The position numbers and the translations under genes are program-made. From Bursaphelenchus xylophilus (taxonomy: Eukaryota > Nematoda > Chromadorea > Rhabditida > Aphelenchoididae), in assembly GCA_904066235.2 (NCBI GenBank), contig CAJFCV020000006.1:9920001-9984000 (forward strand): a stretch of 64,000 bases of DNA, in the 5' to 3' direction. The notes below the pieces were generated by a model. It was not told where the DNA came from. It worked only from the letters and a program-made list of their open reading frames with translations, and did not search any database. Position 1 is the first letter of the stretch. Each line of letters begins with the position of its first letter. Below, piece after piece: positions 2,251 to 60,075 of the stretch.

Positions 2251-3580
2251 GCACGGTGCAAAAAATAAAGCCGAGTTTTTTGCACTGTGCGGAGGAGAAG
2301 TTGGGTTGGATGATGCTATTTTGGAAGTTTATGGAATACATAATTTTATTGCTCAACCAAAAATTTCGTAGTTTTATCGCAAGTGCAGTTTTAGACAAAT
2401 CTTTGCACTGCACAGTGCAGAAAATTAAATTGTAGTTTTCGCACAGTGCAAAGAGAAAATTGAAATTATCGTTACATAGTAAGGTGAGTAGTAGAATAAC
2501 TAGTACTTATACATAGTAAAAAATCTTGTTTTTCAACAGCACTGTGCAGTTCAAGCTCAACTTTCCAACTGCACCGTGCAAAAAATTAAATTGGAAATTT
2601 CGCACAGTGCAAAGAAAAAATTGAAATTATTATCGTATGGTGAGGTGACTAATAGAACAACTAGTACTAATACAAAGAAAAAATCTTTTTTTTTCAACTG
2701 CACTGTGCAGTTCAAGGTCAATTTTCTCACTGCACAGTGCAAAAAAAGAATTTCAATTTTCCGTAATGTGCCGTAAAAAGAAAGCTTCCAATGCCATTGC
2801 GTGGCCAATAAACAAGATCGCCAGCTAGTGGCATGAGTAAACAAAGCTGTTTTTCATTGAACAATGCAAGAATAAAACGCGTCTTTCTTTCGCGCAGTGC
2901 CAAAAACAATGTTTGTTTTTGCCGCATTGTAGAGTGGAAGATGAAGAAGAAGATGGAAGTTTTAGAATAAAAACAGTGACAAATTTTATTTTTGAATGAA
3001 AAAAATTCCTATTGGGTTTTTGCACAGTGCAGAATAGGCATCTTTTACTAATGCACTGTGCGTTTGGAAAAATAAGCATTTATTGCACTGTGCAGTAGAA
3101 AGTAAAAGTGAAAATAACGTGTATAGATGGTAATAGGTGTAAATGTATTATTTTCAATAAAAAAACCAAAAATTTGGTTTCTGCACAGTGCGAAATTTTC
3201 AATTTTTGAAACTGCACTGTGCGTTTGGAAAAATAAGCATTTATTGCACTGTGCAGTAGAAAGTAAAAGTGGAAACAGTGTGTTTAGATGACGACAGATG
3301 TAAATTTTTTATTTCGACAAAAAAAATTAATTTTGTTTTCTGCACAGTGCGAAATTCCCAATTTTTCCCACTGCACTGTGCGGTTTTTACAAACTTAATT
3401 TTTCTGCACCGTGCAGAAGCTGAATTTACAAAAAGCGTTATAAAATAAAAATTCAAGCCCTTCAGACTGGATACAGTTCAAAATGAAGTCTCATTTCACC
3501 GCACAGTGCAATGATCCGTTCAATTTTTATTCACCGCACAGTGCATTCGAACTGAAAGTGTTCTATGGAGCGCACCGTGC
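2251..3580. repeat. GCACNGTGC palindrome array 1
   Basis: About 25 copies of the odd palindrome GCAC-N-GTGC lie in AT-rich DNA, usually with Y before and R after, so the full core is YGCACNGTGCR. Parts are tandemly duplicated: the segment around 3050-3260 repeats a TTGGAAAAATAAGCATTTAT unit between palindromes. No protein-coding gene is supported here. Apparent frames are rich in CTVQ, AQC and HCAV, which are translations of the motif. Confidence 0.85.
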
Positions 3581-4015
3581 GAAACACGATTGGAATTCGA
3601 AACAAATGACCGCAAATATTAATAATCAACTACCAAAAAAGGGGAGAGAAACGACGAAACAGGTGAGCGAAAATTCCCATTCGAGCCAAACAAGCTCGGT
3701 GACCTCAGAATTATGCGGAGGAAAGGGCGGGTAAAAATAAAAAAAAAATGACTGGCTGGGGATGCGCTGTGTTATATAACAATATAAAAAGCCCAACTCG
3801 GCGTTTCGCTCCGAAAACAAACGCATTTTCGTCCAAAAATCGGGCATGAGAAACAGGTGAAAATGGATGGAGAAATTGGAGAAAATGACAAATCCCCTCG
3901 AGCAACGAGTAATTAAAAAGATCTCGGATGAATAATTCAATTACTCCATGAATTTGGAGGAGTTTTAATTGGATTTGTCGAGTAAATGAAGGGTTTATTG
4001 GGAAAATTCCGGTTG

Positions 4016-4310
4016 CACAGTGCGATAAAAAAGAAACAAAGATTTTGCACGGTGCAAAAACATGTGGAACGAAAAAATTGCACTGTGCAGTCTCAAAAAA
4101 TTGACGCACGGTGCAGAAAAACGAATGGTGACAAAACTGCACTGTGCGATAAAAAAGAAAAATCTGATTGCACAGTGCAAAAATGAGAATAAATTGCACC
4201 GTGCAGACAAAAAATCATATGCACGGTGCAAAAAGATACTGCTAAAACGCACTGTGCAGTCTCAAAAAATCGACGCACGGTGCAAAAGTGTCGCTGAGAG
4301 TGCACTGTGC
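4016..4310. repeat. GCACNGTGC palindrome array 2, left part
   Basis: Eleven copies occur in about 300 bp at roughly 28-bp spacing, with the central base varying among A, T, C and G. The array stops at a transposon and resumes on its far side at 5822, so the array is older than the insertion. Confidence 0.88.
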
Positions 4311-4331
4311 GATAAAAAGAAAAAAGAAATA

Positions 4332-5817
4332 TACTCCTCGTACAATGTTTTGACCCCCCTCCTAACTCGGTCCAAGGTGTACTAATTCGGACCAAATTTG
4401 GCATGTAGTATACTCACAGGCTAGTAACAAAAAATAACATAGCAGGACATACCTTATAGTTGAATTTCAAAATCTAGAAACAATTTTCAAAAATCACCTT
4501 AAAAAATCGAGGAAAAAGTTTTGACCCCCCTTAAAAAACGTTAGATATCACCAGCGGATGCCATGCAAACTTATTGTAATCGACGTCCCATACCCGAATA
4601 CAGGTTAATATATGGTTTTCCGTTGAATGCTTCGTTGCATTTGAGGATTCAACGCGTTAAACCGTTTTTAATGCAGAGCTGCCCAAAATTGTAAAAATCT
4701 TGCCCGCTTTCCTAAAGCTGTAAATTGGGTTTATATTACGTGCTTTAGACCTGTATTTACCTTCTCCTTTCAATAAAAGTGCATGGTGGCCTGGCGGTGT
4801 AGATTCGGCAGATACCTTCTTGTCATGCCCAGCTTTGGTGAGCCATTTGCTCTTCGACTCAAGGTCGAGATGTGGTCGTTAGGTCCTCAATGTAATCCTG
4901 AGACTCCTAGTTGCTCTCAGTAACGTAAAATGTTTTGATTTGGCACGTTTTGTAATGGGTTTTATTCGCCTTAATCTTAACTTTGCCGTTACTGTAGATG
5001 ACCCCGAGTACGATGACATCCCCACCTCCCATTTGGCGTTTCATACGTCTCAAATGAGAATGGTGGGTGCCGTAGCGTCTTAAATTACCTGGTCCATCAA
5101 ATGAAAGCCGTTTTTGGTGGCTAAAAATCCATTTGAAAAACGCGGGTTTTTCGTTAAGGTGCAGATCGGCGAAGTTGCGCCTGCAAACCATATGAGACCG
5201 TGTCAGCCGGAGTTTATTCTTTGTTTGAAAGTAACTAGGAGTCTCAGGATTACACTGAGGACCTAACGACCACATCTCGACCTTGACTCAAAGGGCAAAT
5301 GGCTCACGAAGGCTGGGTATGACAAGAGGGTATCTGCCGAATCTACACCGCCAGGCCACCATGCACTTTTATTGAAAGGAGAAGGTAAATACAGGTCTAA
5401 AGCACATAATATAAACCCAATTCAGAGCCCTAGGAAAGCGCTAGGGCAAGATTTTTACAATTTTGGGCAGCTCTACATCAAAAACGGTTTAACGCGTTGC
5501 GTCCTCAAATGCAACGGAGCATTCAACGGAAAACCATTTATTAACCTGTATTCAGGTATGGGACGTCGATTACAATAGGTTTGCGTGGCATCCGCTGGCG
5601 ATTTCAGACGTTTTTTAAGGGGGGTCAAAACTTTTTCCTCGATTTTTAGAGGTGATTTTTGAAAATTGTCTCTAGATTTTGAAATTCAAATATAAGGTAG
5701 GTCCAGCTATGTTATTTTTTGTTACTAGCCTGTGAGTATACTACATACCAAATTTGGTCCGAATTAGTACACCTTCGACCGAGTTAGGAGGGGGGTCAAA
5801 ACATTGTACGGGGAGTA
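4332..5817. mobile_element. 1.49-kb foldback element with TA target duplication
   Basis: Long inverted arms of about 585 bp (roughly 4332-4915 and 5230-5817) surround a unique centre. The tips read TACTCC at the left and GGAGTA at the right, each flanked by TA (4330-4331 and 5818-5819), as expected for a Tc1/mariner-type target. No transposase frame is visible, so it is non-autonomous. It contains none of the GCACNGTGC palindromes that border it on both sides. Family assignment rests only on the TA target and the structure. Confidence 0.85.
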
Positions 5818-5821
5818 TAGA

Positions 5822-6140
5822 TCGCACAGTGCAAAGAAGAAGAAAAAACCTGCACCGTGCAAACACAAAAAGATCAACGCACGGTGCAAAAAATGTGAGA
5901 CTAAAAAAATTGCACTGTGCAAAAGTGTCGCAAAAATAAGCCGCACTGTGCGGCTTATTTTTGCGAAAAAATGAAGAGAAAATCTGCACCGTGCGAACAA
6001 AAAATGCATTGCACTGTGCAAAAGTTTGCCGCAAAAACCGCACTGTGCAACAAAAATTTGTATTTTTTTCGCACGGTGCAAAAAATCAAAACTTGCACTG
6101 TGCAAAAAACAAACATAATTTCGCACAGTGCAAATTTTTG
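5822..6140. repeat. GCACNGTGC palindrome array 2, right part
   Basis: The array interrupted by the 4332-5817 element continues here, with about ten copies. At 5928-5966 one copy sits at the exact centre of a perfect 39-bp odd palindrome: 19-nt arms, TCGCAAAAATAAGCCGCAC and its complement, around a central T. Confidence 0.88.
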
Positions 6141-8929
6141 AAAAGCCTAAAATACATGTGGAAGAGCAATAATTTGTGCGAATACGCAAAAAATCCGTCA
6201 AAAAATCGTAATTCAACTTCCGAATGACTAAAAAATCTACGGGTTTACCATGAAAAACGTATGGAAAGCGCGGTAATCTCCAAAACAAACAGTGATCAAG
6301 ACGAAAGAATACTAAAGCACGTTCCATTCTAATATTTGCACAACAAGAAATTTTATAGGCAACAAAAAGTAGAGGAAATTTGCATAAAACGAAGGGAAAT
6401 GCCATCGAAAAGATGCGCAATTAAGGTTAATGGCCGTTAGTGGCATTCCTAATCGAAAAAACAAGGACAATCCATTAAGGCGGTGGATGGGGAGTAGTAA
6501 GAGATCGTGAGAACGATAATTTGGAGAGGAAATTGTGATTTATGAAGGGGTTTTTGGAGTCATGCACGGTGCAAGTTGGATTTTGGAGAACTGCACAGTG
6601 CAGTTAAAATTGATTGTAAAATACGAGTTTTTTAAATTGTTCATGATGTAAAAAAATTTTTACTGTATTCTCAAGATGCTGTAGATCATTTTACAACAGA
6701 AAGCGGCAAAGGAAATTCGAATTCCCGCGGGATTCACAAAAATTTTTGTATTGCACTGTGCAGAAAATTTCAGATCCCAAATTTAGATATTCAAATGACA
6801 TTTTTGCAAAGATAAGCTTGTGTATTCGAAAAAGAAAAGTTTTTTGTATAAGTTAAAGCAGAATTTTTTTCAAATTCTACTTGAGATACGAACTATGAGA
6901 CAATTTGATTATTTGCACTGTGCAGTCAGAAATTATTGGAGAAATCACAAAGCCGGGAGAGTTGAGCAAGAGATCCGTATTTTAAAACACTCTATGGCAC
7001 TGATTGGACGTCTGCGAGGACAAGGATTTTTGCAAAAATTGCAAATTTTCGAATTTCTCAAAATTTTTTCAAACTGCACAGTGCAGTCGACATTGATTGT
7101 AATGAAACGCGCCCTGAGGCAAAACTTCTATTTCAAATATGTTTTAATTGTCATGACGTTATCTTGAACTTCTTATTTTTCCATTTTGCACTGTGCAAAT
7201 TCTAAATCTGACTGCACAGTGCGGCAATTTTTAAAATCTGCACAGTGCGTTTTCTTAAATCTTGATTTCAGCCAATAAACAAACTAAAAATTGTGGAATT
7301 GTTGATCAGCAAGATGTTTCATCGTATTTGAGGTTGATTTATCGGAGATTTCACCACAGATTTCCTTTATCATCGCCATTCCTCGAAATCCCATCAAATT
7401 ATATAACATTTCTTATGTCATCGCTCCACTTCCACGACGATTCCTCGATTGGTTTCAGTCCCTTTTTACTTTCTCTCCTCCAGATCCATCCCATTTTCCT
7501 TTCGATGGTCACACGTCGCTGAAAACTCATTGGAGGCGCACTTTTTTTCTTTTCTTTTTTGATTGACCTTGTTTTTTGCGCGGATTTCAAACGTTTAGCC
7601 CGTTGAACACCGGCTGAAAAATCAGCTGAGGAAAGGTTTCAACTTTCTTTTTCATTATTTTATTCTTTTCTTTTGGATTCTACGACTGCACTGTGCAGAA
7701 GTTTGCCTTTTGTTTTATGCACTGTGCAGTAAAAAGAGAGTTTGAATTTTCATTTCTACTGCTTGAATAGACCCTTAGGGCACACATAGCATCGACACAT
7801 TTCTATTTTTGCAAACTTGCCGAAATAAAACGTCTTTCTTTTGACTGCACAGTGCGAATTTTAAAGCTTTCTGTTTCTTGCACGGTGCAGTAAAAAATCG
7901 ATTTGAATTTTGTCGCACAATGAAATATTAGCCTCTAAGCGCTTTGTCGAACATTTTTTAGGCGACACAACTTTGAATCCTAACCTTAAAAAGCCGGATT
8001 TTTTGACTGCACTGTGCGGAAAATACCGATTCTTGATTTTCGCACTGTGCAGTCAAAACTGGACATGAAATTTTTATCGACTGTGTCAAACGAATGTTTA
8101 GAAAGTCTAAAATGTACTTTTACAATTTTTTGGATGCTCTCCATTGTACTGTGGAAATTATTTTTTTACCGCACTGTGCGGATTTTTTTGTTTTTCGTTT
8201 TTTGGACTGTACGGTCAATGTTAATAACAATTTTTGATTCTGAATGTAAACACATACCCTAGAGGTCCTAAATTTATTTTTTAAATTTTTTCTTATCTAT
8301 CTGTCGCACAGTGCAAACGCCTTTCCAATTTTTTGCACTGTGCAGTCAGAAAAAGCGATTGCACTGTGCGGTGAGAATTTCGTGGACTAGCAAAGTTTAC
8401 GTAGGATGCACAGAGCCCACTTTTATCCATTTTGAGTTTTTTTGTCGCTCAAAAGTTTCATTACACCACTAAAATCTCATTTGGCTTACAAAACTCCCCT
8501 TTTTTGCCCTAAAGGCCTTTGGAAGGTAACCAATTTTTATACTGAACCGGACCTTTGGATCGCATTCTTCTCTCGCCACCAATTTTTTGGTTGATGAATC
8601 GCGTTGATGGACAAATAGCGGTTTAAATTTTTCATTTCCCTCTCCGCCCGTCCCAAACGAAACGGGTTTTCAGCGGTTTTCTCAGCGTCGTTCGATCGCA
8701 AAACGTCCATTTTTCTGGGGGTTTTCGAGGAATTCTCTCGCCAATTTTACTAATGACCGCAGAAACAACACCTTTATTGCCCGCGGCGCGCCTCCAGGTT
8801 CTGCGATTTTAGTGGTATTTTTTGGGGAAACTGGTAATGAAACGGGCGATTCAGAGGGCGTGAGGTCTTGCGAAATCATTTTCCAAAGTTATTTTTTCGA
8901 TTTTTTTACATTTCAATTTTTTTCTACTG
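6141..8929. repeat. Scattered GCACNGTGC copies, no gene recognised
   Basis: Single copies occur at wide spacing (for example near 6564, 6592, 6754, 6916, 7076, 7189, 7213, 7688, 7851, 8009, 8041, 8170, 8306, 8335 and 8360). I see no convincing exon chain. The 8400-8900 stretch is less AT-rich but has no supported frame. Confidence 0.6.
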
Positions 8930-9700
8930 CACAGTGCAGAAATAATTTTTTGCACCGTGCAGTCGGCTTTTATTTCCGAAATTGATGCACGGTGCAATGG
9001 GGCCTTTTTCAAAACCGCACAGTGCAATCTTATCGCACTTTCGGGATGTCGCTGATGCACAGTGCCGGTTCAAAAAGAAAAAATTGTCGCACAGTGCAAT
9101 CAATTCGCTTTTCAAAAGTCACTGCACGGTGCAAATTTTTTTGTGTTGAGTTGTCGCAATTGCACGGTGCGATGGATTCGTTTTTAAAACCGCACAGTGC
9201 AAATTTCAAAAAGATCATCGCACAGTGCAATAATTGGCTTTTCAAAAGCCACTGCACAGTGCAATGGATCGTCTTTTTAAAACCGCACAGTGCAATTTTG
9301 ACTCATTTTTGGGATGGCTGATGCACAGTGCAGATTTCAAAAAGATCACCGCACAGTGCAATAAAAGTTGTTTTTTCCAAAGTCACTGCACAGTGCAACA
9401 GATCCTTTTTCAAGACTGCACAGTGCAATTTTGAAAACCTTTCGAGATGTCGCTGATGCACGGTGCAAACTTCAAAAAGAGAAAAATCACCGCACAGTGC
9501 AATCAATTCGCTTTTCCAAAGCCACTGCACAGTGCAAATAATTTTTCTGTTGAGATGTCGCCATTTCACGGTGCAAATTTAAAAACGAAAATAATGAGCG
9601 CACAGTGCATTAAACTTTCTTTCATTTCTTGAACAATTGCACAGTGCAATCAATCTCTCTGCACAGTGCAACTAGTTTTTTTACTAGTTGCACTGTGCAG
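8930..9700. repeat. Dense GCACNGTGC palindrome array 3
   Basis: About 28 copies occur at 20-45 bp spacing. A larger unit of roughly 130-150 bp carrying about four palindromes is repeated, recognisable by recurring fragments such as GATGTCGCTGATGCAC and CTTTTCAAAAG. At 9659-9700 two copies form an 18-bp perfect inverted repeat (arms 9659-9676 and 9683-9700, 6-nt loop). The array ends about 120 bp upstream of the DB-domain gene. Confidence 0.88.
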
Positions 9701-9810
9701 GCAGATTTTTTTATTATTTTATTTTTTCGCACCGTGCAGTTCCGGGAAACGTGTTGTAATGAAGTACAATATGGATACGTCGTATTTTAACATTACATAA
9801 AATTTATAAA

Positions 9811-9822: not shown

Positions 9823-9823
9823 G

Positions 9824-11399
9824 ATGTTCACCCGGTTATTGGCGTTGGCATTAGTGGCGGCGGCGGTTTCTGCCCAAAATAAAGTCACAGAGTTCGAGAA
9901 TCCAACAGTAAGTCTGAAAAAATTTTTAATTTTTTTCTAAAAATTGTTTATTTGTAAAATACGAGGAACTCAAATCCTTCTGCTTCATTCAAAATTCAAC
10001 TAAATTTGCTGTAAAAATGATTTCAAAATTGAAATTTTTTGATTTCTTTTATTATAAAATACAAGAATAAAATGACAATAACGTATTTTAAAATCAAAGA
10101 TAACGTATAAAAACAAGTGCCATGATCTTTATTATCCAATTTTGATGATTTTTTTCATTAAAAAAAAAAAAAAATACAAATCAAAAATTTTTTTTTTAAA
10201 TAAAAATTTTCCTCCAAAAATCTTGACTTCCCCTAAAATCATCATTTTTTCACAAAAAAAAAACAAACAAAAATTTTCCTTCAAAAAATTCCAAATTTTT
10301 ATTTATTTTGCAGGACTGTGGCAACCAAGCATCGGACTGGAAGCCCTGCATTGAGCGCAAGATCGCGGATCAGGTGTTCGGTTCGTGCTGCGAGCGTTTC
10401 GTTCCCCCAGAATGCCGCGGCCTCTGCATCTACGAGAACCATCCGATCGAGGCGAGGGTTGTGCTGATGCACACGATCCAGCCGAGTCGTTGTCGGCTCT
10501 ACAAATACCTCAGCTCCATCATCCATTGTGCCGCGCAAACCCACGACAACTCGGAGTGTTGCCGGGACATGGGATTGGAGGACATTGGACCACAGTGCAT
10601 GCAGCTGTGCCGACCTCAGGTGAGGAAATGACATGTTGGCGGGCCGTTTAATGCGTCCCAAAATCGCACTGTGCAGCAAGAAATTTGTGTTTTTTTATCG
10701 CACTGTGCAGTTCCAAAATCCGATTTCTTTCCGCACTGTGCAGCAAAAGATTAATATTTTCTTATCGCACCGTGCAGTTCCGCAATTTGTTCTTTTTTAT
10801 TGCACTGTGCAATTTGAAACTTTATTTTTTACTGCACTGTGCGGTTTCCATTTTCAATTCTGACTGCACTGTGCAGTTACAAAAGTTGATTTTTTATTGC
10901 ACTGTGCAGTTCAAAATTTCTATTTTTTACCGCACGGTGCAAAGGTTCAACTTGCCACTGACCGCACTGTGCAACCTGAAATTTTTTTGATGCACTGTGA
11001 GGTCTAAAATAGGTTGATTCTTTGCTGCACTGTGCGGTTTCTGAATTTTATTTTTCATTGCACTGTGCTATTCGAAATTTGCTTTTTTATCGCACTGTGC
11101 AGTTGAAAAATAGACCCTTTTCATCGCACTGTGCAGTTTCAATTTTCATTTCTGACATGCACTGTGCAACTCAAAAAAAAATTTTTCTGCACTGTGCAGT
11201 CAAAGTAAATCTTTTCATTTCTAACGTCAAAATTTTCCAGGCGAATCCTCGTCAGTTGTGGGGTGCCAAGTCGCTGCGTAAGGACCTGGTTCAATGTCTT
11301 TCCAAATGGGATCAAGTAATGCATTGCCATCAATCGGGGCTTCGGGCTCGCAAGATCAACGTCCAAAACGAGCCCCAGTCGGAGTTGAAACACATTTAA
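9824..11399 (+). CDS. Secreted DB-domain protein, 182 aa
   Basis: Three coding exons, 9824-9907, 10314-10619 and 11241-11399, all in phase 0 with GTAAGT/GTGAGG donors and TTTTGCAG/TTTCCAG acceptors. Residues 1-17 (MFTRLLALALVAAAVSA) form a signal peptide, so the product is probably secreted. The mature part starts with DCGNQ and has a dense cysteine pattern (SCCERF, CRGLC, CCRDMG, CMQLC, CLSKW, CHQSG). It ends with the DxxxQCLxxxxDxxxCH-like block typical of the nematode DB module (Pfam DB, PF01682). DB proteins are nematode cysteine-rich secreted proteins of largely unknown role. Intron 2 (10620-11240) is filled with GCACNGTGC palindromes. A poly(A) signal follows 59 nt after the stop. Identification is by motif recognition, not a search. 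Confidence 0.88.
10666..11210. repeat. GCACNGTGC array inside intron 2 of the DB gene
   Basis: Roughly 16 copies at 25-45 bp spacing fill the intron, separated by T-rich spacers, mostly in the form TNGCACTGTGCAGTT. The flanking exons contain no copy of the full motif, although exon 2 has a partial CACAGTGCA. Confidence 0.88.
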
Positions 11400-11638: not shown

Positions 11639-11830
11639 TTAGGTTGTTCAAAATGAGATGTCGGATTTTATCCTTTAACTTTAAAACACCATAACTTTTT
11701 TTATAATAAACTTTATTAATCGAAATAAGAATCATTAGAATCAACACACTTTTGCCAACGAGATAGAAGTTTATTTATGCCGGTAGCGTAAAAATCCCGA
11801 CAGATTTTCTTTATCAAATCTTCACAAGGA
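11639..11830 (-). mobile_element. 3' remnant of a mariner transposon
   Basis: On the minus strand, a frame ending at 11716 finishes with IKKICRDFYATGINKLLSRW followed by QKCVDSNDSYFD and a stop. This matches the C-terminus of mariner transposases (FYxxGIxxLxxRWxxCVxxxGxYF). Beyond it the plus strand starts TTAGGTTGTTCAAAATGAG at 11639, preceded by TA, which looks like a mariner terminal repeat. Only this end is present. The other end and the catalytic domain are missing, and the DNA runs straight into the last exon of the six-module gene. Confidence 0.75.
11712..11717 (-). terminator. Poly(A) signal inside the mariner remnant
   Basis: AATAAA on the minus strand lies about 105 nt downstream of the last stop codon of the six-module gene. 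It could serve as that gene's 3' end, in which case the signal was supplied by the transposon. Confidence 0.45.
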
Positions 11831-12853
11831 ATGCCTGTTCTTCCGTGTCCTGTTTGCAGCCGGTCTTTCAACGGGTGCTGCGTCCGAAAACTCGGTCGCC
11901 ATGGTGGTTGGAATGTCTTCGTAAGCTTCTCCATGTGGTGGGCTCAATTCCTGCCTCAACGAAGCGGCAATGGCTTCGAGAGCGTCATTTAAGGCGTCGT
12001 CGTCGAATTCCGGAGCCTTGTAATCCGGGATAGGTTCTGAAGTCGTGGGCTTAATGTCCCCTGGCGGTACAGCTTCGTCCTGACTGTCTTGGTGAACGGC
12101 ACGCTCCATTATTTCGCGGCAGTCGTCTTTCCAGGACGTCGGCCCAGTCTCTTCAAATACAGCCGATGTGTTAGCGTGATACATCATTCTTTGACGGATG
12201 TTTGTCTTGAGTTTGCCAAGAATTGCACTTTGTTGTGGGTGCCCTTCAAAGCATTCCTTAACCTTGTTGTAGATCATCTCGGATCCCTCCTGGGGTGTTA
12301 TGGCGTTTGGATGTTTTTTGACCAACTGGTTTACCGACCTGAAACAGAACAAACATGAAACTCATTAAACTGTTCACCAGTACTTACCGCATTTGCTGCT
12401 CCATCAACACCTTGTTAATGGGAAACCCGTGCCCTCGCTCCATGCAGATGTGCTTGCCTTCATCCGGGTCCGACTTCAACATCATAGTGGTTGTATTCAC
12501 GGTGTTTTTCGATCTTCCTCCTAGCAACTTGCACTGAACGCAGATGACGCGAACAGATGTTCCTGCTTTGTTGGTCTTATTCTCATTCTTGGAGAACTTG
12601 TATCCAAAACCCTTGTAGCGGTTGCTGGCTGTGTAGTAGATCGGATTGTTTCTCTGCGACGTTCCAACTGAAACATGACGTCCGGAAGTTGTAAAGCTTT
12701 CCAGCGGAGTCGCCATCGGACCTGTGCACAAGGCTGCTGTTCGGCGCACCTTCTTCTTTGGTTCCTCGACATTCAGCTCGTCTTCTTCTTGACCAGCGTA
12801 TGCTTCGCTTTGTGCTGAGGTCCCTGCTTCGGGTGTGGTATCCCAAAATGAAG
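11822..12853 (-). CDS. Module 6 (terminal exon pair)
   Basis: Exon a 12388-12853 and exon b 11822-12338, with a 49-nt intron. The a exon has the FSKNENKTNKAG form, two residues longer than modules 1-4. The b exon, unlike all the others, has no donor. It runs into a tail rich in Pro, Ala and Arg and stops at TGA 11824-11822, at the edge of a mariner remnant. This is the natural 3' end of the array. Confidence 0.6.
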
Positions 12854-15800
12854 CTAAACGTAACAGTTGGATTAATAAGGGAGTACCAAAAGGAGAAGGA
12901 CAAAATGCCACAACAAAATCTTTCGTGTGGTTTGTCGATCGAAAGTTTTTTTTCTCGAATTGTTTTATTTTTTTTTTTATCAATTGTGACACTTCGTTTG
13001 GACGAAACTTCAAAGTAGGCGGGAGACATTTTTGTTCTATTTGAGATTGTCCTGCCGTGTGAAAACGTGAGAAAACTTTTTGGCCTGCCTGATAAAGTGT
13101 TCATGTCTGAACTCTCTCCCTGCTCTGAAAGATTTTCCCTCTCGAAGCCGAAGATTTTTTTAAACGTTGCAGAGGGTGTTTTTTGGATCGATACTCGGAA
13201 ACTGAACAAGTTATGTTTTCAGCTAGCCCGATTTCCTCTTTCATTTGACATGCAAAATATTGGTTTTCTTGCTGGAGAACTTGTCGAATTTTGTTGTCAA
13301 CCTTTTAGAACCATGTAGAACATTAAATCGGAAAACTCGGCAAATGCACTTGCAAGGAACTTATTTTTTTAGGTAGTCGGCGAAAGATTACAATATGAAT
13401 ATTCAAACATGTTGAACTAGGGCTTTTCAGCTGGCCCACACCGTAATCTTTCACCGACTTCCCGAAAAATAAGTTTCTTGCAAGTGCATTTATCAAGTCT
13501 TCCGATTGAATGTTCTACATGTTCCCAAAAGGCTCGACAACAAAATTTGACAAGTTCTCCAGTAAGAAAACCAACATTTTGCATGTTAAACGAAAGAGGA
13601 AATCGGGATAGCTGAAAACATCACTTGTCCAGTTTCCGAGTATCAATCAAAAAACACCTTCTGCAACATTAAAAAACATTCTTTTTTCGAGAGGGAAATC
13701 AAAATTTTATAAAAAGATTTTCTGAGGCTCTGTTCTGACCTCCTTTTACAGTGTCTGGCAATGTGATTCGAAAAAAGGAACACCTCGAGAACAACATGTA
13801 AGTCAATATTTAAGTTTTTTTAGCGATTTTTGCTAATTTTTGACATTGTGAATTACCGGATTGAGTTATACTGGTTGACAAAATTTTCTTTCCACCTCGT
13901 ATCTCGGGAACCACTGGGCCTAGAACCTCCAAATTCGGCATAGAAACATCCTAGGACAGTCTAACACCATGCCCAAAAAATCATATAATTTGATGCACTT
14001 TACATGCCCTTTTTCCAAAAAAGGCAAAAACCCGGATGACAAAATTTTCTTTCCACCTTGGAAAAAACGTTTGTAACTCATAAGCCAGAGGGTTTTAAGG
14101 CATGGTTGTGGTATCGTTGTGTTCGCGAAGAAGTCCTCTCTCGATTTGTGTCACAACCTTACGGGGGTTTTAGTTTCTTCGCCCTTGGGCGTCGGCTCAT
14201 CGTTGCCTTGTCCATTTTCAGCCAAATTCGTGGCCAGAGGAGCTCGCATAAGGCACAAGGAGATGAAAATTCCTTTAAAAAATCTGGCATTCATGTTTGC
14301 AACATTGTTTCCTCCGGCAGCAGAATTCGATTTAATTTAAGTGCGTTGCAGGGGAAAACGCGCGCTTCCAAGGTTTTCGTTACCAGAAAATTACGCTATT
14401 ATGGGAACACTGCAGATAATTCAAGTAACTTTTCCTCCTTATATATTTTCTATGATACTACAGAGTTAAAAAATAGTGACGATTTTAATCACTGATGTCG
14501 CGCTTAGATGTGAGCAGAAGAAAGGTTCCAAACGCCCCATGTACAAAATTTGCGACTCTAAGCTTCCTGTGAAAGCTATTCGTCGTGGAAAAAACGTTGA
14601 AGGCCTGTCAAGGTCAATGTATTAAAGTAGTCTGGTAGCCAAAAGTCCCAATATACCAAGCTTAAGTAATGCCAAGGCCTAGTGCAACAACCTGCGTTAC
14701 TTGAGACGACATAGACCAGAGAGGGGTAAGATAAGCTGGTAGATTTCAACACATGCTGTCGTATAAGCCCTAAAGTACGCCGTATGTAGCGAAAATGGAT
14801 GTAAATTTGGACGTTTCCATTCTGTACAGAAGTGATTCTTCGGTTTTGCGGACCCAGGCAGCGCTCATTTTCCCCTGCGACGCACTTAAATTAAATCGAA
14901 TTCTACTGCCGGAGGAAACAATGTTGTAAAAATGAATGCCAGACTTTTTAAAGGGATTTTCATCTCCTTATGCCTTATGCGAGCTCCTCTGGCCACGAAT
15001 TTGGCTAAAAATGGACAAGGCAACGATGAGCCGACGCCCAAGGGCGAAGAAACTAAAACCCCCGTAAGGTTGTGACACCAATCGAGAGAGGACTTCTTCG
15101 CGAACACAACGATACCACAACCATGCCTTAAAACCCTCTGGCTTATGAGTTACAAACGTTTTTTCCAAGGTGGAAAGAAAATTTTGTCATCCGGGTTTTT
15201 GCCTTTTTTGGAAAAAGGGCATGTAAAGTGCATCAAATGATATGATTTTTTGGGCATGGTGTTAGACTGTCCTAGGATGTTTCTATGCCGAATTTGGAGG
15301 TTCTAGGCCCAGTGGTTCCCGAGATACGAGGAGGAAAGAAAATTTTGTCAACCAGTATACGTTTTCTTCATCTGGTGCGCTCAATTCCTGCTTGAACGCA
15401 ACAGAGGCAATAGCTTCGAGTGCATCATTTAATGCTTCATCGTCGAAGTCGGGCACGCTTTTATCCGGGATAGATTCTGACGGCGCCGATGTGTTAGCGT
15501 GGTACAGCATTCTTTTACGGGCGTTTGTCTTGAGTTTGCCAAGTATTGCACTTTGTTGTGGGTGCCCTTCAAAGCATTCCTTAACCTTGTTGTAGATGAT
15601 CTCGGATCCCTTCTGGGGTGTTATGGCGTTTGGATGTTTTTTCACTAACTGGTTTAAAGACCTGAACCAGACCAGACATTACATTTAACTGTTCCTCATT
15701 CCTTACCGCATTTTCTGCTCCATCAACACTTTGGTAGTGGGCAAACCGTGTCCTCGCTCCATGCAGATGTGCTTGCCTTTATCCGGGTCCGACTTCAACA

Positions 15801-46808: not shown

Positions 46809-46890
46809 CAGATTTTTTTTTTGTTTTGTACGGGAAATAATCACACTTACTACTGTAAAAACTTGTAAATTGTAATATATATTGCTCAAT

Positions 46891-47400: not shown

Positions 47401-47407
47401 TCTTTTG

Positions 47408-48370: not shown

Positions 48371-48443
48371 GCACAGTGCAGTAAATTTTTTTATTCATTA
48401 TTCGTTTCAAAACCAAAAAAATTTCATTTCAATTTTTAAAATC

Positions 48444-48462: not shown

Positions 48463-49651
48463 ATGTTGATTAACAAGCATTATTTGAGCAGTAATCATGG
48501 AATGTGCAAAATTTTGCACATAATCACCGGGTTCATCATCTCGTCGCTTCTCTGTGCCAATTGGTATGGCGGAAGGAGCTGTTTCAGCGAGAAATATGTC
48601 GCAATCCCCGCGGGCATTAACATGACGTTGGTATTTGTCAACATTCTCGTTTTCATTTTGAATTTCATCGACTTGGGAAATCGACCACTGGTAAGTTCAG
48701 CATTTTTTTGGTGCTTTTAGTGTTTTTTTTTGCACTGTGCAATCTTTAACGAATGAAAAATTACCGTACTGTGGAGATTTTTGGATTTTTTTTTTCAAAT
48801 CTGCACTGTGCAATCAAAATTTTTTCTTTGATTTTATTGCACTGTGCAGGCAGATTCAAATCTTCACTTTTTTTCTCCTTGCACAGTGCAATGAAAACAT
48901 CATTTGGCGACAAGAAAGAAAAGAAATTTTTCGCACTGTGCGGACCAAAAATAAGCCTAATTTTGTTATTGCACAGTGCAAAATAAAAGAATTTTCTTTT
49001 TGCTGCACTGTGCACTCAAATTTTTATGTCGCGTTTGATTGCACTGTGCAATTTTTTTCATTTTTTCTGTTGCACTGTGCAATCTTCAATGAATTGGAAT
49101 TAGCGATCATCCGGCGACAAGAAAAAAATTTTTTCGCACTGTGCAGTCAAACGATCAAAAGTTTATTAACGATGCACTGTGCAAAACAAAAGATTTTTCT
49201 TTTTGCTGCACTGTGCACTCAAATTTTTTGTCGCGTTCGATTGCGCTGTGCAAATTTTTTTCGTTTTTTCTGTTGCACTGTGCGGTCGAAACATTATTTT
49301 GATGATTGCACTGTGCGGACCAAAAATAAGCCTAAATTTGTCATTGCACAGTGCAGAATAAAAAAATAAGTAAAAATTTTTGTAAAATATGCGCAGTGCG
49401 ATATATTTTTGAGAAAAAATTATTATAATTTTTGATTTTTTAAAACTTTTCACACATTTTTTCAGGAAAAATACTACTCGATGTTGTGCATCGTCCTTTA
49501 TTTTACGGGAATGGGGATTCTGATCTGGTACATGATCCAATTCAACAACCAACGCGGCTGGTTGGCGGCGTCGGTGGTGCTCTTCATCCTGAACACATTT
49601 TTGGCATTTTTTGACGTTAAAATTCTTCAAGGCGATATTGATGATGATTAG
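48463..49651 (+). CDS. MARVEL-like tetraspan protein, 137 aa
   Basis: Two exons, 48463-48690 and 49466-49651, phase 0. Four hydrophobic segments at about residues 14-34, 47-69, 80-98 and 105-122 are separated by short loops, with a short acidic tail ILQGDIDDD. It is a clear paralogue of the minus-strand gene at 57950-58974: identical first exon length (228 nt), the same intron position and shared motifs NYLSSHRG/HYLSSNHG, GSCF and KILQG. Size and layout fit MARVEL-domain membrane proteins that act in vesicle or apical membrane organisation. That role is inference. The intron contains a dense palindrome array. Confidence 0.78.
48730..49398. repeat. GCACNGTGC array in the intron of the MARVEL-like gene
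   Basis: About 22 copies. A unit of roughly 190-320 bp is duplicated, seen from the repeated GGACCAAAAATAAGCCTAA, TTTTTGCTGCACTGTGCAC and CGGCGACAAGAAA-type segments. Confidence 0.87.
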
Positions 49652-50133: not shown

Positions 50134-50345
50134 TGCACCGTGCAAAAAAATGAATTGCACTGTGCAAAAAAATAAATTGCACTGTGCAAGAAAAATGAAT
50201 TGCACTGTGCAAAAAATAAATTGCACCGTGCAAAAATTAAATTGCACCGTGCAAAAAAATGAATTGCACTGTGCAAAAATTAAATTACACCGTGCAAAAA
50301 ACAAATTGCACCGTGCGGAAAATCAATTGCACTGTGCAAAAAAAC
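50134..50345. repeat. Simplest palindrome tandem array, about 21-bp period
   Basis: Ten copies in 210 bp of the unit TTGCACNGTGCAAAAAA plus three or four bases. The central base varies while spacing is nearly constant. This is the most compact array in the window and shows the minimal repeating unit. Confidence 0.9.
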
Positions 50346-50540: not shown

Positions 50541-53052
50541 ATGCTGAAGGTTGTTGAAATTCCCTCAACTGATATTCAACGACTCCTCGATGAGATTCAA
50601 GGGGATTTAAAATTTTTGGCGACTTTTAACACTTTGAAATTGTACTTGGCAAATGGATTATTGGAGGTGGAATTTAAATTATTTTTGGTTCAAAATGAAG
50701 AATTTAGACATTTTTTGGCCCAACAAATCATGTTTGGCTCTAAGTAAGTGCAATTTTTTTCCAAGTGTCCAATTTTTAAAATTACGTTTTTTTCCATAAT
50801 TTTTTCTACAAATTCATAAATTTTTACGTTTTTATCAATAAAAAATTTAGAATGTCATTTTTTACTGTGCAATATCTTTTTTGACGATATGATTTCTTTT
50901 CACCGCACTATGCAAGAAGATGAAAAATTTTGTCTGCACAGTGCATGGGGTTTTGGCGCTAATTTGGAATTGCCGCACTGTGCAAAAAGAAAAAAAAATT
51001 TCGCACAGTGCAGCACACTTCGATTTTTGTTTTTTTGCACAGTGCAAAGCAAAAATTTATTTTTCTGCACGGCGCAAGAAAAAATTTTAGTCTTTTGCAC
51101 AGTGCAGTGTGGTTTTGGCGCCAATTTCAAAGTGCTGCACGGTGCAAAAAGAAAGAAAAATTTCGCGCAGTGCAGCACACTTCAATCTTTTTTTCTTGCA
51201 CAGTGCGAAGAAATCATTTTATTTTTCTGCACAGTGCAAAACAAAATTTTATTTTTTCGCACAGTGCATGAAATAAAAATGAGAAAAAAATTATTTTTTT
51301 TTGTATTTTAGGCTGAACATTCGACATGAGTGTAATACCGAAGACCCTAGTTTTGTTCGAGACTCAACTTTGGCTTTACTAAGCCATCTTCAGCCAACTT
51401 TTGATCGATTTGATGGATTCATGTCGGTTTCGATGAGGGCCGATATCCGAGAAGTTGTAAGTATAATAAAATACGCGTATTGAATCGTCAAAAACATCTG
51501 GATAGACTTTTTTATTCTGCCATCAGACATTTTTTTCACTGATTTTTTGTTGGAGAAATCAGGGAATTTTATAAAATTTATATTACACTAGACATCAAAC
51601 GATAAAAAAAGATAAAAAACAAGATGAATAATGCCTTTGTAAGTAAAAATATTGCTTCCGAAGCAGATTTCGAGTTTCGTATTTTACAATTTCAGGCCAA
51701 TAAATACTTCGAAAATGCCAATTCTCATCCATTTATCAGCATGGATGAGCCCAATTGGGTCTTTTACCTTGATGATAAGCAAGTCGAAAAGTTGATGAAT
51801 ACCACTCTAAAAGCTCCTGAAGGCTATGAATTTTCAAGTTTGAGGCCAGAAGAAGCCGTTGAAGTGTCAAACGACACGTTGTACATGACCAAAGGCGATG
51901 AGAAATATATTGCGTAAGTTACAGAAAGAACGATTTTCCGGGCCAGAAATAGTACTATTTTATTGAGAAAAATATTAAATTTGTTTTAGTATTACCCCAG
52001 GCGACAAAATTCGAATTTACGTTTTTTGTCCATAATTTTTGAAAATTCATAAAATTTAACGTTTTTTCTCCATAATTCCGAAAAAATCTCGGAAAAGCTA
52101 TAAAATGTATTTTAGACCAAAACTCGCCGGCCTACCGTCGGTTGCAATGCGGAAAACGGACACAAAAGAGATTGTCGCCTATGTTATCCATGACAACTTT
52201 GGTATGATCTCCTCGCTGTTCACTCGCAAACCCCATCGGAACAGAGGAATTGGCTCTTTGATTGAGCGAAGACTCAATCAAATCAACGTTGAAAAGTGAG
52301 CTGCTCCTGAATCAATGAAAAAGTTTGTTGAGCGCACAGTGCGGATTTTTGTTGTGCCTTTTTCTTGCACTTTGCGACAGGTTCAGGTGGAAAATTTGCA
52401 TTTTATTTGCTACACAGGTCCTCTAGATTTTTTCTGTTTATTTTCCAGCATCCCAATTTTCTGCACAGTGCGGATTTTTGAATGAATTTTCACTGCACAG
52501 TGCAGATTTTGTTTGCCTTTTTCTTGCACTGTGCGATACTTTCGGGGGGAAAATTTTTATTTTATTTGCTACACAGGTTCTCTAGATATTTTTTTTTATT
52601 TTCCAGAATCTCCTTTATCTGCACAGTGCGGATTTTTGAATGAATTTGCACTGCACCGTGCTGAATTTTAAGTCATCGTTTTCTCGCACTGTGCCAGAGA
52701 TTCTTGAAGGAATAACTAAAAATCTGCTATTTAAACACTCATTTACACGGCAGTAATTTTTTTGATCTCCATTCCTATTTGCACAGTACATAATTTCGCA
52801 AAATTTGCAACGCACAGTGCAAAAACCAACAAATTGAGATTAATGACCAAACCTTTTTTCAAAACTAAAAAATCAGCTTTTAGGCTCGGACTGGTCCCAT
52901 ACAAAGCAGTTTCCGTAAATCGACCGAGAGTAATGGAGATGAGTGTCAACGCTTACAACGTTGTGAGAGATTCGAAGGGAAACCCCGAAGTCACCTACTG
53001 GACGTATCGCTCAAAAACCCCAAAGAAAATGGTTGTCATCTTCGAAAATTAA
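50541..53052 (+). CDS. GNAT-fold N-acyltransferase (GLYAT-like), 304 aa
   Basis: Five exons, 50541-50743, 51312-51456, 51696-51913, 52116-52295 and 52884-53052, with phases 2, 0, 2, 2. The length and the late GNAT motif fit the glycine N-acyltransferase-like branch found in animals. Exon 4 has the acyl-CoA binding signature HRNRGIG at residues 229-235, preceded by a beta-strand-rich segment (VAYVIHDNFGMISSLF). The N-terminal half (KFLATFNTLKLYLANGLLEV) has no known motif. Expected activity is acyl transfer from CoA to an amine, probably cytosolic; the substrate cannot be told. Introns 1 and 4 carry palindrome arrays. A decayed duplicate with the same exon lengths lies immediately downstream. 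Confidence 0.8.
50900..51275. repeat. GCACNGTGC array in intron 1 of the acyltransferase gene
   Basis: About 13 copies in two units of roughly 170 bp, identified by the duplicated GGTTTTGGCGCNAATTT and CAGCACACTTC segments. Confidence 0.85.
52334..52820. repeat. Palindrome copies in intron 4 of the acyltransferase gene
   Basis: Two units of about 165 bp share TGCTACACAGGTYCTCTAGA and palindromes, some decayed (GCACTTTGCGA, GCACCGTGCTG). Confidence 0.8.
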
Positions 53053-53172: not shown

Positions 53173-53839
53173 AAAGGCTCAAAGTCCAAATTTGGGGCTT
53201 CTCTGAACATCTCAGCCCATTTTGAAGTCTCTCCGATCCTTTTTGGGGCTTGTTGCAGAATGCCAAAAATCGCGGTAAGACCTAAAGAATTTCAAATTTG
53301 ACCGTTGTAAAATCTTGTACGTCAGTTTTATACGACTCTTGGAGTCTGCATAACGATTTATACGCAAATTTACAGTATTTCCGGCACTTGCAACAAAATG
53401 CCAAAGTCGTTTTGGGACTAAAGATCGCAGTATGTATAAGAAAAGGTTCAAATCAAAAATTTAAAAGCACAAAACAAACCTTCTATCCCCATAAAATCTC
53501 TTCACAATATTTTTTACACTGTTCTTTTTTCCTTTTGAATGACGACTCTTTAAACTTTTGTTTCTACTACATCTATAAGGTCGCAGAAGAGACAGCATTC
53601 AAAATGGAAGTGACCGAAATTCCACCAACTAATTGTCAGCAAATTGTTGATGAAATCGACAATGATTTACGATTTATTGCGACGAGCAACATCCTGAAAT
53701 TGTACTTGGCCGGCGGACTACTTGGAGTGGAATTTAAATTATTTTTGGTCAAAAATGAAGAGTTTCGACATTACCTGGTGTATGAATTGGCCTTGGGGAC
53801 CAAGTAAGTTGGGGTGAAAATCAAAAAAATGGAAAAAGT

Positions 53840-54190
53840 TTATTGCACAGTGCGGAATATTCAAAAAAAAATTTTTTTGAAGAGCAATGTATTTTTCGTT
53901 AATTTTCCTTTGCACTGTGCAAAAATCTATGCATAAAATCTTCAACGGCCTCTGCACAGTGCATTTTTTTAAACATTTTTGCACTGTGCGGCCGGCAAAA
54001 ATAAGACAATATATATTGGCCCAAAGATAGGATTAAAAAATTCATGTGACTCTAAAATGACCTCTAATCACTTATACAACACCTTCTTTATCTTTTCCAC
54101 CACTTGCCACACAATGCCAAAGATTTTCATGTTTTCTTTGCGGGACCCAAATCAACCTCAAATAATTGGCATAATTTTGCACCGTGCAAT
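53840..54190. repeat. Palindrome copies in intron 1 of the pseudogene
   Basis: Five GCACNGTGC copies near 53845, 53912, 53953, 53981 and 54178. They are fewer than in the intact sister, and the surrounding sequence is not obviously alignable. Confidence 0.75.
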
Positions 54191-55015
54191 GGAAAAGCCG
54201 TATATAATGAATTTTCAGATTGAGTATTCGACATGAATGCAATACCAAGGACCAAAATTTTGTGAAAACTTCGACTTTTGCCTTGTTATCCCATCTTCAG
54301 GCAACCTTCGAAAAATTCGATGGATTTACGTCGGTTTGCACGAGGGATGACATTCGGGAGGCTGTAAGTTTAATTTTTCTTCTATTCTGCAAGCTTTTAC
54401 AGCAAAAATTTTCGAGATTTTTTGTAAAAAAATAAAAAATTTTTTTCTTAAATTTTTAATAATTTTGAAAAAACGACATGAAAGGGCTATACTTTCACAC
54501 AATAGGTTTAGATTTCGTATTTTACATTTTCAGGCCGATGAATACTTCAATTCGATCAATTCTCATCCATTTTTCGCCACGGATTTGCCAAATTGGGTCT
54601 TCTATTTTGATGACAATCAAGTTGAAAAGTTGATGAAAACCTCTTTAGAATTGCCTGAAGGCTATGAATTTTCCAAATTACGCCCAGAGGATGCCGTTGA
54701 AGTCGTAAATGACACGTTATATACGACCAAAAGCGATGAGAAATTTATTGAGTAAGTTTGGAAAAAATCAAAATTTTAACTGAAAAACATTCGAAAATGG
54801 TTTCAATATTGCCTCAGGTGAATTTTTCGTATTTACGTTTTTGTCCATAATTTTCAAAAATTCATAAAATTTAACGTTTTTTCGAAAAATCCAAAAATTC
54901 AATGATAAAATCGGCGGACTTAGAATTGAAGTGATTTAAAAAAAATTTCAGACGAAAACTCACTGGTCTACCATCAGTTTCGGTCGTTCGAAAAGACACA
55001 AAAGCTCTGGTTTCA

Positions 55016-55680: not shown

Positions 55681-56191
55681 ACATATAAATTTAATCCACA
55701 AAGTCCTATTCATCCCGGATTGCGGCAAAACGTTTACAGTTCGGCGGTCGAGATGCGGTTCAATCAGGTAAATTTCGAACAGTAAGTTGTAATTTGAAAT
55801 TCAATTTTGGCCAAAAAATTGAACTGCACTGTGCAGAAATTTGATTGTCATTTTCTGCACAACGCGGTTGGTAAAACTTGAAGTAATGTGGGGAAAAACA
55901 TCTTATCTTTTATTTACTTTCAATTTTAAACAAAAAAAATTTTGATTTTTTCCGGCACTGTGCAGAATTTTGATAATCTTTTGACTGCACCGTGCATTAA
56001 CTTGAAGGCTAAATTTTCGCACCGTGCATATACGAAGATGAATTTTGATGTTAAAATTCAGTTTGAAGCTTCATTTCATTAGATATTTCACAATTCCAAA
56101 CTCGAAACTCAACTGCACTGTGCAGATTTTTATCAAGTTTTCTGTCGCACAGTGCAAATAAAATTTTTTGGTTAAAATTTGTCCAAATATA

Positions 56192-57440
56192 CAGGGTGCG
56201 CCAATAAAATCTGGACTAAACTAAATTCCATGTAGCCTTTTTCGGACGGCCTAAGAATGGAAACTTTTAGCACTTTTAGAAAGGGTAACAACCGTGCTGT
56301 ACAGCAACGGTAATGCCCAAGTCGGTGCCGATTGCAAGAGCGAAAAAATAATCAAAAGCTTTTGGAGGTGCAGAATTTTTTTTTCCAGGTGATGACTGGG
56401 CTATTAATTCTTCCATTATTTCTGCTAAGGGGGACTGACGTTCTTCAAATTTATTGTATATAAAGTACGTGCTGTTGACTTTGTAACAGCCAACGGAATC
56501 ATGGTTGGCGGCCGATCTGGCGGCGCTGGTGGCGGAAACAAAAAAAGGCCCAAAAATTTGGATTTTTATGTTTTTAAGGATCTCAACGCCAGATTATAGC
56601 CCATGTTGCTCCAAAATTCCGTGATTACAGAGCGTATACATAGACAATTGTTATAGTGTAAAAGCAAATCCGCACATACAAGGGGACCGTTTCTGCATAA
56701 ATAAAAGTTCATGGGGGGAATTCAAGGCACGGTCATTCGGGACTTGAAACGTTTTGGCAGTTTGTAACAAGTTGGACAGGCGTTAAGCGTAAAAATCAAC
56801 ATAGCGTTGTATACTGGATACATGCTAATGTAGCCAAATCACTTTTAGAAATATCTAGTCCAAGATCACTCAAACAGCGAGCATATAGTAAATTATGCCA
56901 CTGCAGTCACTATTTCATCCCCAGAGGCAGTCGATAGAAAAATCCTCTTTGAAAGGCGACTGGGCAGACTCTGGTTATCCTTGCAAAAGTAGTTCTGGTG
57001 CTTAACATGTTTGGAATCACACAGGGAAACTTCTACATAAAAATCTTTGATTTAACGGAAGTTTTCGGGGAAGAGGGCCCGTTTTTGAGCCAACTTTGGT
57101 GAGCTGTAAAAAGCCTAATTGTCATAATGAGGCAAAATCAATTTCAGTATATAAAAACCGACCGGAGTTCTATCAAAAAAAGTAAATTTCAGCCCATAGC
57201 ATAAAACGGTAAAGATAGTGCAACCATTTTTTAACCAATTTGGGGTCCGTGTTTCAGGCGCCTTAGTTGTAAGCACTTATAATGACAAAACAAGTGTCGC
57301 AGACGATTATTTTGTCTGAAACTTTAAAGATAGCTTCTTGGACGTATTACACGTGTCCACAATCGCCCACTTTGTTCTCGTACTGTAACAGCCCGCAGGG
57401 CAAGCAAAAATATTAGTCCAGATTTTATTGGCGCACCCTG
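56192..57440. mobile_element. 1.25-kb Tc1/mariner-like non-autonomous element
   Basis: Tips CAGGGTGCGCCAATAAAAT and complement are flanked by TA at 56190-56191 and 57441-57442. It is related to the element at 42106-43215; its right half matches the other's left half inverted (for example CCCGCAGGGCAAG and GGGGTCCGTG stretches). No transposase frame. Confidence 0.87.
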
Positions 57441-57801
57441 TATAAAAAATTCGAATTTTAGGCTTGGCGTCCGGCCTTTCAAGGCAGTCTCCACCAATCG
57501 ACCACGAGTGATTGGGATGAGTTCCAGGGCTTAATTTGGCAGGAAAAGAAGAGATTTTTTACTGGGTTCAACGCTCGAGATACCCGCAGAAACCGATTGA
57601 GATTTATGAGAACTAATGTGAAAATATATTATTATACATTTGAATCGTATTTCAAGCCCATTTCAACACTTTATTATTATTTTTAGACCATTTTTACCCT
57701 AATTTTTCACATTTCACTAAAAAATTCAATTTTTATACGTTCAAAATATAATAATTTGCTTATGTAACAAATAAAATTTTCGTATTTTACCGTAAATTCT
57801 C

Positions 57802-57807: not shown

Positions 57808-57949
57808 AGCCAAAAAAATTGTATTTTACATCAAAAAAATGCTAAAAAATTATGAAAATTGGGAAATTATGCGAAAAAAGCGTCGTTACAAAAACTTGAA
57901 GGTATTTTTTGTGATCCAAAAGTAGTAATGGTAGCTTCAGAGTAGTTGT

Positions 57950-58974: not shown

Positions 58975-59005
58975 GGCTAACGGTTAAATTGGAGGGTGGA
59001 TTGGT

Positions 59006-59017
59006 CTGAAAATTATT
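59006..59017 (-). promoter_or_regulatory. Spliced-leader-type acceptor of the 58974 gene
   Basis: AATAATTTTCAG on the minus strand lies 31 nt before the start codon. Confidence 0.55.
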
Positions 59018-59088
59018 TTGTATTACTTCAAGCCACTTTTTAAATCTTTAGGTAAGCCTTGGCCACGAAAAAATGTGAAAAAATAATC

Positions 59089-60075
59089 GCACAGTGCGAA
59101 AAATAAAGATCGGCACTGTGCATTGAAATCGAAAAAAATTGTATGGTTCTATGACTAATATGTTCCAGAAACGTCAAAAATTTTACTCTGCAATCTGTAA
59201 AGCCCTCAGATCAAACCGCACGGCAAGGAGAAACTTTCAAAATGCTCCGCACAGTGCAACAAACAAAATATTTATTTTTAATCGCACTTTGCAGCGTAAA
59301 CCTAACTGAATAAGGTAAAGATAAACGCATCTTCACTTGAGCACACTTATCGCTAATTTGACCCTCTTTCATTTCAAATCACTGTGCAATAACTTTTTAA
59401 TTTTTTCCGCACAGTGCAATCAACAAAATCGTGGTATTTAATTGCAACCTGCGAGTATAATTAGATAGAAAAAACGTATCGGTTAGTCACATAATATATT
59501 TAGCCAACTGCGACAAGATTTAAGCCCGGCCCACCTATTCGCACCGTGCAATATCCAATAACTATATTCCGCACAGTGCGACAAAAAAATCTTGACATTT
59601 CATTGCACTGTGCGGACATAGCTTCATCAAGATAGACCATATGGCACAGGCGGTGGACCCTATGGCATACTTAATCAAATTTAACCCCATTTAGGCTATG
59701 CTCACATCTTTGCACTGTGCAATAACATCTCGATTTTTACCGCACAGTGCAGTAGAAATAACATGATCTTTTATTGTGCTATGCGGTTCGAAAAGATGTC
59801 AAAAAAGACATTGACAAAGCCAATGCCAAATTAGATCAATTTCATCCCAATTTAGACTCTGCTCACTTCTCTGCACTGTGCAATAACATCTCGACTTTTA
59901 CTGCACAGTGCACTAGAAATACAAAGCTCTCTTTTTGTATTATGCGGTAACATTAGATCTCAAATAAGGCATTGACAAAGCTAATGCCAAATTAGATCAA
60001 TTTCAACCCCATTTACACTCTGCTCACTTCTCTGCACTGTGCAATAACCTCTAATTTTTTACCGCACAGTGCAAT
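59089..60075. repeat. GCACNGTGC copies in about 155-bp units
   Basis: About 15 copies. From 59690 to 60075 three units share CACTTCTCTGCACTGTGC, AATAACATCTCGA and CAAAGCNAATGCCAAATTAG. Some copies are visibly decayed (GCACTTTGC, ATTATGCGG). Confidence 0.83.

Follow-up and report, generated by a model that had tools for sequence, protein, structure and literature searches.

Several described systems keep a short sequence constant within non-coding surroundings that change, and those closest to the present case are summarized here. In Meloidogyne, satellite boxes (a CENP-B box-like element and a 19-bp box found with CenH3) are conserved across diverged tandem units (PMC9673304; PMC3694981). The pairing centres of C. 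elegans, served by the HIM-8/ZIM zinc-finger proteins, are clusters of short motifs lying off-centre on every chromosome (PMC9071541), and the VANC targets in Arabidopsis VANDAL transposons consist of a nine-base motif kept in fast-changing non-coding tandem repeats (PMC5735166; PMC10398659). The Periodic An/Tn Clusters of C. elegans are likewise non-coding, dispersed and able to act from introns. Here we describe an odd palindrome, GCACNGTGC, that recurs in arrays along a 64,000-nucleotide stretch of the Bursaphelenchus xylophilus genome (C6:9920001-9984000, hereafter the window), within an assembly of 78,253,340 bases in 8 contigs, six of them chromosomes. Its fixed core and free centre suggest a binding site for a dimeric protein.

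The initial annotation of the window had reported hundreds of copies of this palindrome, spaced at about 20–45 bp, with a centre taking all four bases, a pyrimidine (Y) before the core and a purine (R) after it, and each of these statements holds. The window contains 305 exact copies, from 2251 (start of the first) to 60072 (end of the last), against a mean of 0.40 and a maximum of 3 in 100 dinucleotide shuffles. No copies with central gaps of 0, 2, 3, 4 or 5 bases occur in the window, the one-base centre being the only form present; this base is T in 128 copies, A in 113, G in 32 and C in 32. Window copies are preceded by Y in 98% of cases and followed by R in 99%, and the same flanks surround 49 of 53 isolated copies. 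When 443 copies are symmetrized, Y occupies the position adjoining GCAC in 98% and the position outside it in 84%, with T-rich sequence beyond, and the right flank is the mirror image of the left, yielding a fuller form, YYGCAC-N-GTGCRR, that is T-rich on its left side and A-rich on its right; 76% of these copies have A or T at the centre. Among the 444 copies in the sequence examined, no start-to-start distance falls between 9 and 19 bp, and 262 of the 326 distances up to 80 bp lie between 24 and 43 bp. The window holds 37 one-mismatch copies, 26 of them no more than 60 bp from an intact one. A genome-wide count against a control, which had been called for beforehand, rules out background-level abundance: exact copies number 41,616, whereas reversing the motif gives 178, and sequences with at most one mismatch number 60,270, against 8,238 for the control.

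The evidence on how the motif is maintained comes from duplicated stretches aligned within about 286 kb from seeds placed outside motifs, each motif being matched once to its closest relative. Of the 125 resulting motif pairs, 13 with gaps in the motif were left out of the rates, leaving 112 ungapped pairs. Core bases differ at 35 of 896 sites (3.9%), compared with 919 of 5,122 spacer sites (17.9%), and a bootstrap over 27 arrays places the core-to-spacer ratio at 0.22 (0.11–0.34). Real motifs are intact in 90 of the 112 ungapped pairs (80%), whereas for pseudo-motifs set in these spacers the figure is 89 of 298 (30%). The centre, on the other hand, differs in 38 of the 90 pairs with an intact core (42%). 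Across all aligned duplicates, mostly outside arrays, spacer bases flanked by four matches to the left and four to the right differ in 42,827 of 882,876 columns (4.9%). The centre is thus securely unconserved while the core is conserved; that it also changes faster than the spacers (centre-to-spacer ratio 2.39; 1.77–3.00) is likely but not secure, because the excess is uneven across bins of spacer identity. The bases adjoining the core are about as changeable as the spacers; of the 21 changes immediately before the core, 20 are transitions, as Y-to-Y replacement requires, and of the 12 immediately after it, 8 are. The earlier statement that spacers drift while the motif stays intact is borne out, the core evolving roughly five times more slowly than the spacers.

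These duplicates also bear on the simplest alternative, namely that the arrays are ordinary young minisatellites whose cores are alike only through recent origin. Many arrays do contain tandem duplicates 75–90% alike. However, spacers are unrelated between arrays even though the core is identical, and the reduced core rate within duplicates already contradicts recent origin, making this the least probable of the explanations considered. A related proposal, which the initial annotation had named as grounds for abandoning its own reading, is that one satellite family with its whole unit conserved underlies the pattern. With motifs masked and a low-complexity filter applied (E threshold 1e-3), spacer similarity was found in none of the 231 pairs formed by the 22 window arrays of at least four copies, the sensitivity of such a search being limited for such short, AT-rich pieces, and a single satellite family is hence ruled out.

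We consider it somewhat probable, though well short of certain, that GCACNGTGC is the site (YYGCACNGTGCRR) of a putative symmetric dimeric DNA-binding protein, its core being kept by selection while the arrays turn over in the manner of minisatellites. The odd palindrome, with its eight fixed bases, A/T-leaning free centre, mirrored Y/R flanks and 20-bp floor on spacing, leads us to infer a symmetric dimer. A sequence-specific protein would sit on the motif, with N as its uncontacted centre, and ordinary tandem duplication and slippage would multiply the sites, so that spacers change and get lost, while copies losing a core base would be selected against. The slower change of the bases presumed to be contacted, relative to their neighbours, and the symmetry of the flanks are what is expected of a dimer site, and the selection on such a site that had been proposed from the window is supported, at the level of aligned duplicates, by the slow core and free centre.

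A different process could leave a similar trace. A recombinase, nuclease or repair activity centred on the motif might copy it between neighbours, keeping the eight bases uniform and re-drawing the centre without benefit to the host. The turnover of the centre in excess of that of the spacers would follow from such copying, and the 73 centre changes (A/T 23, A/G 16, G/T 13, A/C 10, C/T 8, C/G 3) resemble a redraw from the pool. Inversion of the motif as their dominant source was rejected, since it predicts mostly A/T and C/G swaps and these make up 26 of the 73. Correction between neighbours also fits the observation that isolated copies are less clean than those in arrays, and in the array at 8929-9737 spacer types appear by eye to switch order at motifs. 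The homology-breakpoint test, however, did not clearly reveal the motif-centred copying that the initial annotation had offered as its second option. Of 86 homology ends, 12 are no more than 2 bp from a motif edge in one sequence or the other, against 25 of 86 for a mid-spacer mask, and when the edge is required in both sequences the counts are 7 and 7 of 86; an edge within 1 bp in both sequences gives 7 against 2, in the opposite direction. Because the bases beside the core change like spacers, correction tracts would need to be about 9 bp long, and tracts as short as this are possible. We regard motif-centred copying as unlikely, although it is the alternative to which we give most weight.

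The task proposed for the dimer-binding site depends on where the copies lie. In sampled stretches, which were placed by choice and not at random, 9 copies were found in 13 stretches of 10 kb and 61 copies in 40 stretches of 1.5 kb; the motif is clustered, since the latter copies are concentrated in 8 of the 40. A map was built from complete lists of three long motif variants, comprising 88 places on six chromosomes and 73 occupied 20-kb bins; two of the variants are present on all or almost all of the six chromosomes, and the third at only 10 places. By chromosome decile, the occupied bins number 10, 7, 9, 2, 0, 1, 6, 7, 13 and 18, and those of a control pattern (C1-C5), itself somewhat arm-rich, number 6, 14, 4, 5, 6, 6, 3, 8, 10 and 11. 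The middle three deciles thus hold 3 of 73 bins against 17 of 73 for the control, and for the middle four the counts are 9 and 20 (Fisher p 0.037), again of 73 each. For another variant, with its complete list on C1-C3, 5 of 72 fall in the middle three deciles. Copies therefore avoid chromosome centres. Pooled over the six chromosomes, the places are found on both arms, those of C3 being mostly on the right and those of C4 and C5 more on the left.

This distribution weighs on the idea that the motif is a holocentromere box, marking the sites of centromeric nucleosomes on holocentric chromosomes, a role reported for the 19-bp box in Meloidogyne, where diverse repeats with one common short box form the same pattern (PMC9673304). 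Depletion at chromosome centres is unexpected for sites needed along whole chromosomes, and the distribution expected of such sites is not what was found, so that we hold this explanation to be very improbable. For the favoured dimer-binding protein, the chromosome-wide, centre-avoiding and intron-tolerant pattern suggests a structural task, which would be chromosome-scale (anchoring, chromatin state or meiotic arm recognition) rather than the control of single genes.

Several observations count against the dimer-binding interpretation. Over the whole genome there are about 10,600 more one-mismatch copies than in the control, equal to a quarter of the intact copies, and the 13 stretches of 10 kb hold 21 one-mismatch copies beside their 9 intact ones, compared with 13 one-mismatch copies for the control. 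As isolated copies are less clean, core upkeep would act mainly in arrays, which also fits neighbour correction. The excess of centre change is uneven, the centre differing in 5 of 12 pairs above 90% spacer identity and in 1 of 14 at 85–90%. Moreover, all divergence comparisons were made within one genome, individual selection on so many redundant sites is at most presumed, and no binding protein was found; the CENP-B-type helix-turn-helix domain PF03221 has 7 matches genome-wide, which speak neither for nor against a binder.

Within the window, arrays lie at 2251-3580 (21 copies, with 161-bp duplicated units), 4015-4310 and 5824-6131 (11 copies each, the left and right parts of one array split by a transposon), 6564-7248 (8), 7688-8369 (10) and 8929-9737 (24, with a 131-bp higher-order unit), followed by an intronic array described below. 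The interval from 11.2 to 29.9 kb holds just four copies, scattered at 16983, 17005, 18403 and 22403 (spanning 16983-22411). Next come arrays at 29949-30285 (6 copies), 30716-31332 (17), 32474-32956 (17, with a unit of about 26 bp), 33575-34262 (12), 34596-35601 (25) and 36248-37887 (32). Beyond a motif-free stretch, further arrays lie at 46629-46809 (7), 47407-48379 (19), 48732-49354 (15), 50135-50337 (9, with a unit of about 21 bp), 52334-52820 (8), 55826-56155 (6) and 59089-60072 (13, with 161-bp duplicated units), together with two further intronic arrays. None of these arrays has an assigned strand. Tandem duplication relates the spacers of an array to one another; the repeated units include small ones of 21–38 bp as well as larger ones, several of them near 160 bp. 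Tandem units of 158–165 bp, about nucleosome length, are present in unrelated sequences at 642-987, 2407-2746, 3052-3382, 33735-34106, 47407-47938, 50935-51270, 52334-52729 and 59674-60073, the first of which holds no motif. At 19146-19363, a 15-bp tandem repeat, GAAATTGGACAGAGT, precedes an array whose unit is close to its reverse complement.

The split array contains a transposon-like element at 4330-5819, with no assigned strand, whose long inverted terminal repeats (4330-4705 and 5444-5819) are bounded by TA on both sides. From this TA and the reading of one frame, which has no Pfam match, the element would be of Tc/mariner type. Its arms show 22 mismatches in 376 positions, although they were not necessarily identical at insertion, and the interrupted array retains 22 intact copies and no one-mismatch copy on either side. 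The possibility that this array is part of the inserted transposon was ruled out, as the element lies within the array. More generally, the arrays could be, or have been, sites of a transposon's own protein, in the manner of VANC, or internal Helitron minisatellites. VANC proteins bind a nine-base motif kept in otherwise diverging non-coding tandem repeats (PMC5735166), and the arrays described here sit in repeat-rich arms. Nevertheless, apart from one local gene group, the 22 window arrays have no flank in common (946 flank pairs), no search having been aimed at Helitron ends. The 19 flank pairs that do match consist of 11 in which one stretch is seen from both sides, 1 formed by the transposon arms, 6 among arrays at 50–54 kb and 1 with a 35-bp match. 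The only transposon found, furthermore, interrupts an array rather than carrying one, and we therefore think a mobile-element origin improbable. Elsewhere in the window, an inverted pair of diverged copies (42102-43222 and 56185-57444), 76–81% identical and motif-free inside, is probably a dispersed repeat. No Rfam family reached the gathering score in the window or in C7:1-10000 and C8:1-10000.

Some arrays fill introns, as had been claimed from the window. An apparent intron on the plus strand (10620-11240, splice sites placed by eye), after an exon encoding a DB domain, is filled by a 16-copy array at 10666-11197. At 50.4–52 and 53.3–54.8 kb lie two paralogous genes, whose exon pieces agree at 137 of 200 and 99 of 140 positions. 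Both harbour an array in one and the same intron, with 9 copies in paralogue A (50936-51267, in the plus-strand intron 50744-51311) and 5 in paralogue B (53845-54187, in the plus-strand intron 53804-54218), and their spacers have no detectable similarity. This shared position may be a sign of persistence, and independent gain is also possible. Six of 20 frames were matched by Pfam, five of them above the curated cut-off and a MARVEL match below it. No motif copy occurs in the four carnitine acyltransferase frames, the DB-domain frame and the below-cut-off MARVEL-like frame, nor in four frames of the paralogous pair. The earlier assertion that recognized exons lack the motif thus stands for these ten frames and is less certain at 18403, where a copy falls within a long open frame belonging to the tandem gene family at 12–24 kb, in a part that may or may not be exon. 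This minus-strand family (11822-24076), in whose region only the four scattered copies occur, shares the stretch RNNPIYYTASNRYKGFGYKF among six open frames and gave no Pfam match in the two frames scanned. The carnitine acyltransferase gene, with at least four exons, lies at 41315-45747 in the motif-free stretch at 37.9–46.6 kb.

Other features were noted outside the window. TTAGGC repeats are present at the start of C1, and motif places at C1:98-108 kb follow one another at intervals of about 2.36 kb, pointing to a large tandem repeat near the end of C1. Of the two small contigs, C7 begins with telomere repeats and carries a 169-bp satellite, and C8 has 60 motif copies in 10 kb (C8:1-10000). 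Runs of A/T with a period of about 10 bp, resembling the Periodic An/Tn Clusters of C. elegans, are seen in the window outside arrays and in samples L009, L011, L012, L014, L016, L018 and L020, and are weaker and sparser in six 7-Mb samples from chromosome centres.

A role in meiosis would give the arrays a wider interest. Dmc1, Mnd1 and Hop2 have reportedly been lost from every sequenced Clade IV nematode, HIM-8/ZIM homologues are reported from many Clade V genomes (PMC8455136), and Bursaphelenchus is placed in Clade IV (PMC9071541). In this genome there is one Rad51 locus and there were no matches to the Mnd1 family, in a search whose controls were prokaryotic, so that sensitivity for eukaryotic Mnd1 is not established. 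Since Dmc1 is reported absent from Clade IV and pairing proteins are reported from Clade V (PMC8455136), the arrays offer a handle on chromosome organization and perhaps on homologue recognition. They are at most a candidate for how homologues pair in Bursaphelenchus. It is conceivable, if rather unlikely, that they serve arm recognition in a system for meiotic pairing or synapsis, one that arose independently of HIM-8/ZIM in a lineage reported to lack Dmc1, with one putative dimeric protein coating both arms and its germline occupancy speeding mutation of the centre. The specification of eight bases some 40,000 times, kept amid turnover, would imply an unrecognized chromosome-scale DNA-binding system in a plant-parasitic nematode genus, and a fast-changing centre in a fixed palindrome would constitute a natural experiment on mutation at occupied sites.

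The motif sequence does not appear in the accessible parts of accounts of Meloidogyne boxes, pairing centres, VANC motifs or Caenorhabditis satellites (PMC4595182). A literature search by motif string found no nematode report of it, texts containing GCACAGTGC and the word nematode being unchecked and preprints and most subscription papers being outside its coverage; strings with ambiguity letters matched only a paper on Pseudomonas, and B. xylophilus is named in none of the 12 literature matches listed of 1,684. Compared with the Meloidogyne boxes, the present motif is an odd palindrome with a free centre, repeated every 20–45 bp in short, unrelated arrays that also occupy introns and are depleted at chromosome centres. 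The Periodic An/Tn Clusters, in contrast, are defined by the phasing of A/T runs, without a fixed GC-rich palindrome. Whereas VANDAL arrays belong to one transposon family, no element is common to the surroundings of the window arrays. The link with pairing centres raised in the initial annotation, which stays hypothetical, fails as a matter of membership by map position: copies lie on both arms rather than at one end of each chromosome. The motif also differs in being palindromic, in its about 40,000 copies and, apparently, in being one on all chromosomes where C. elegans has several.

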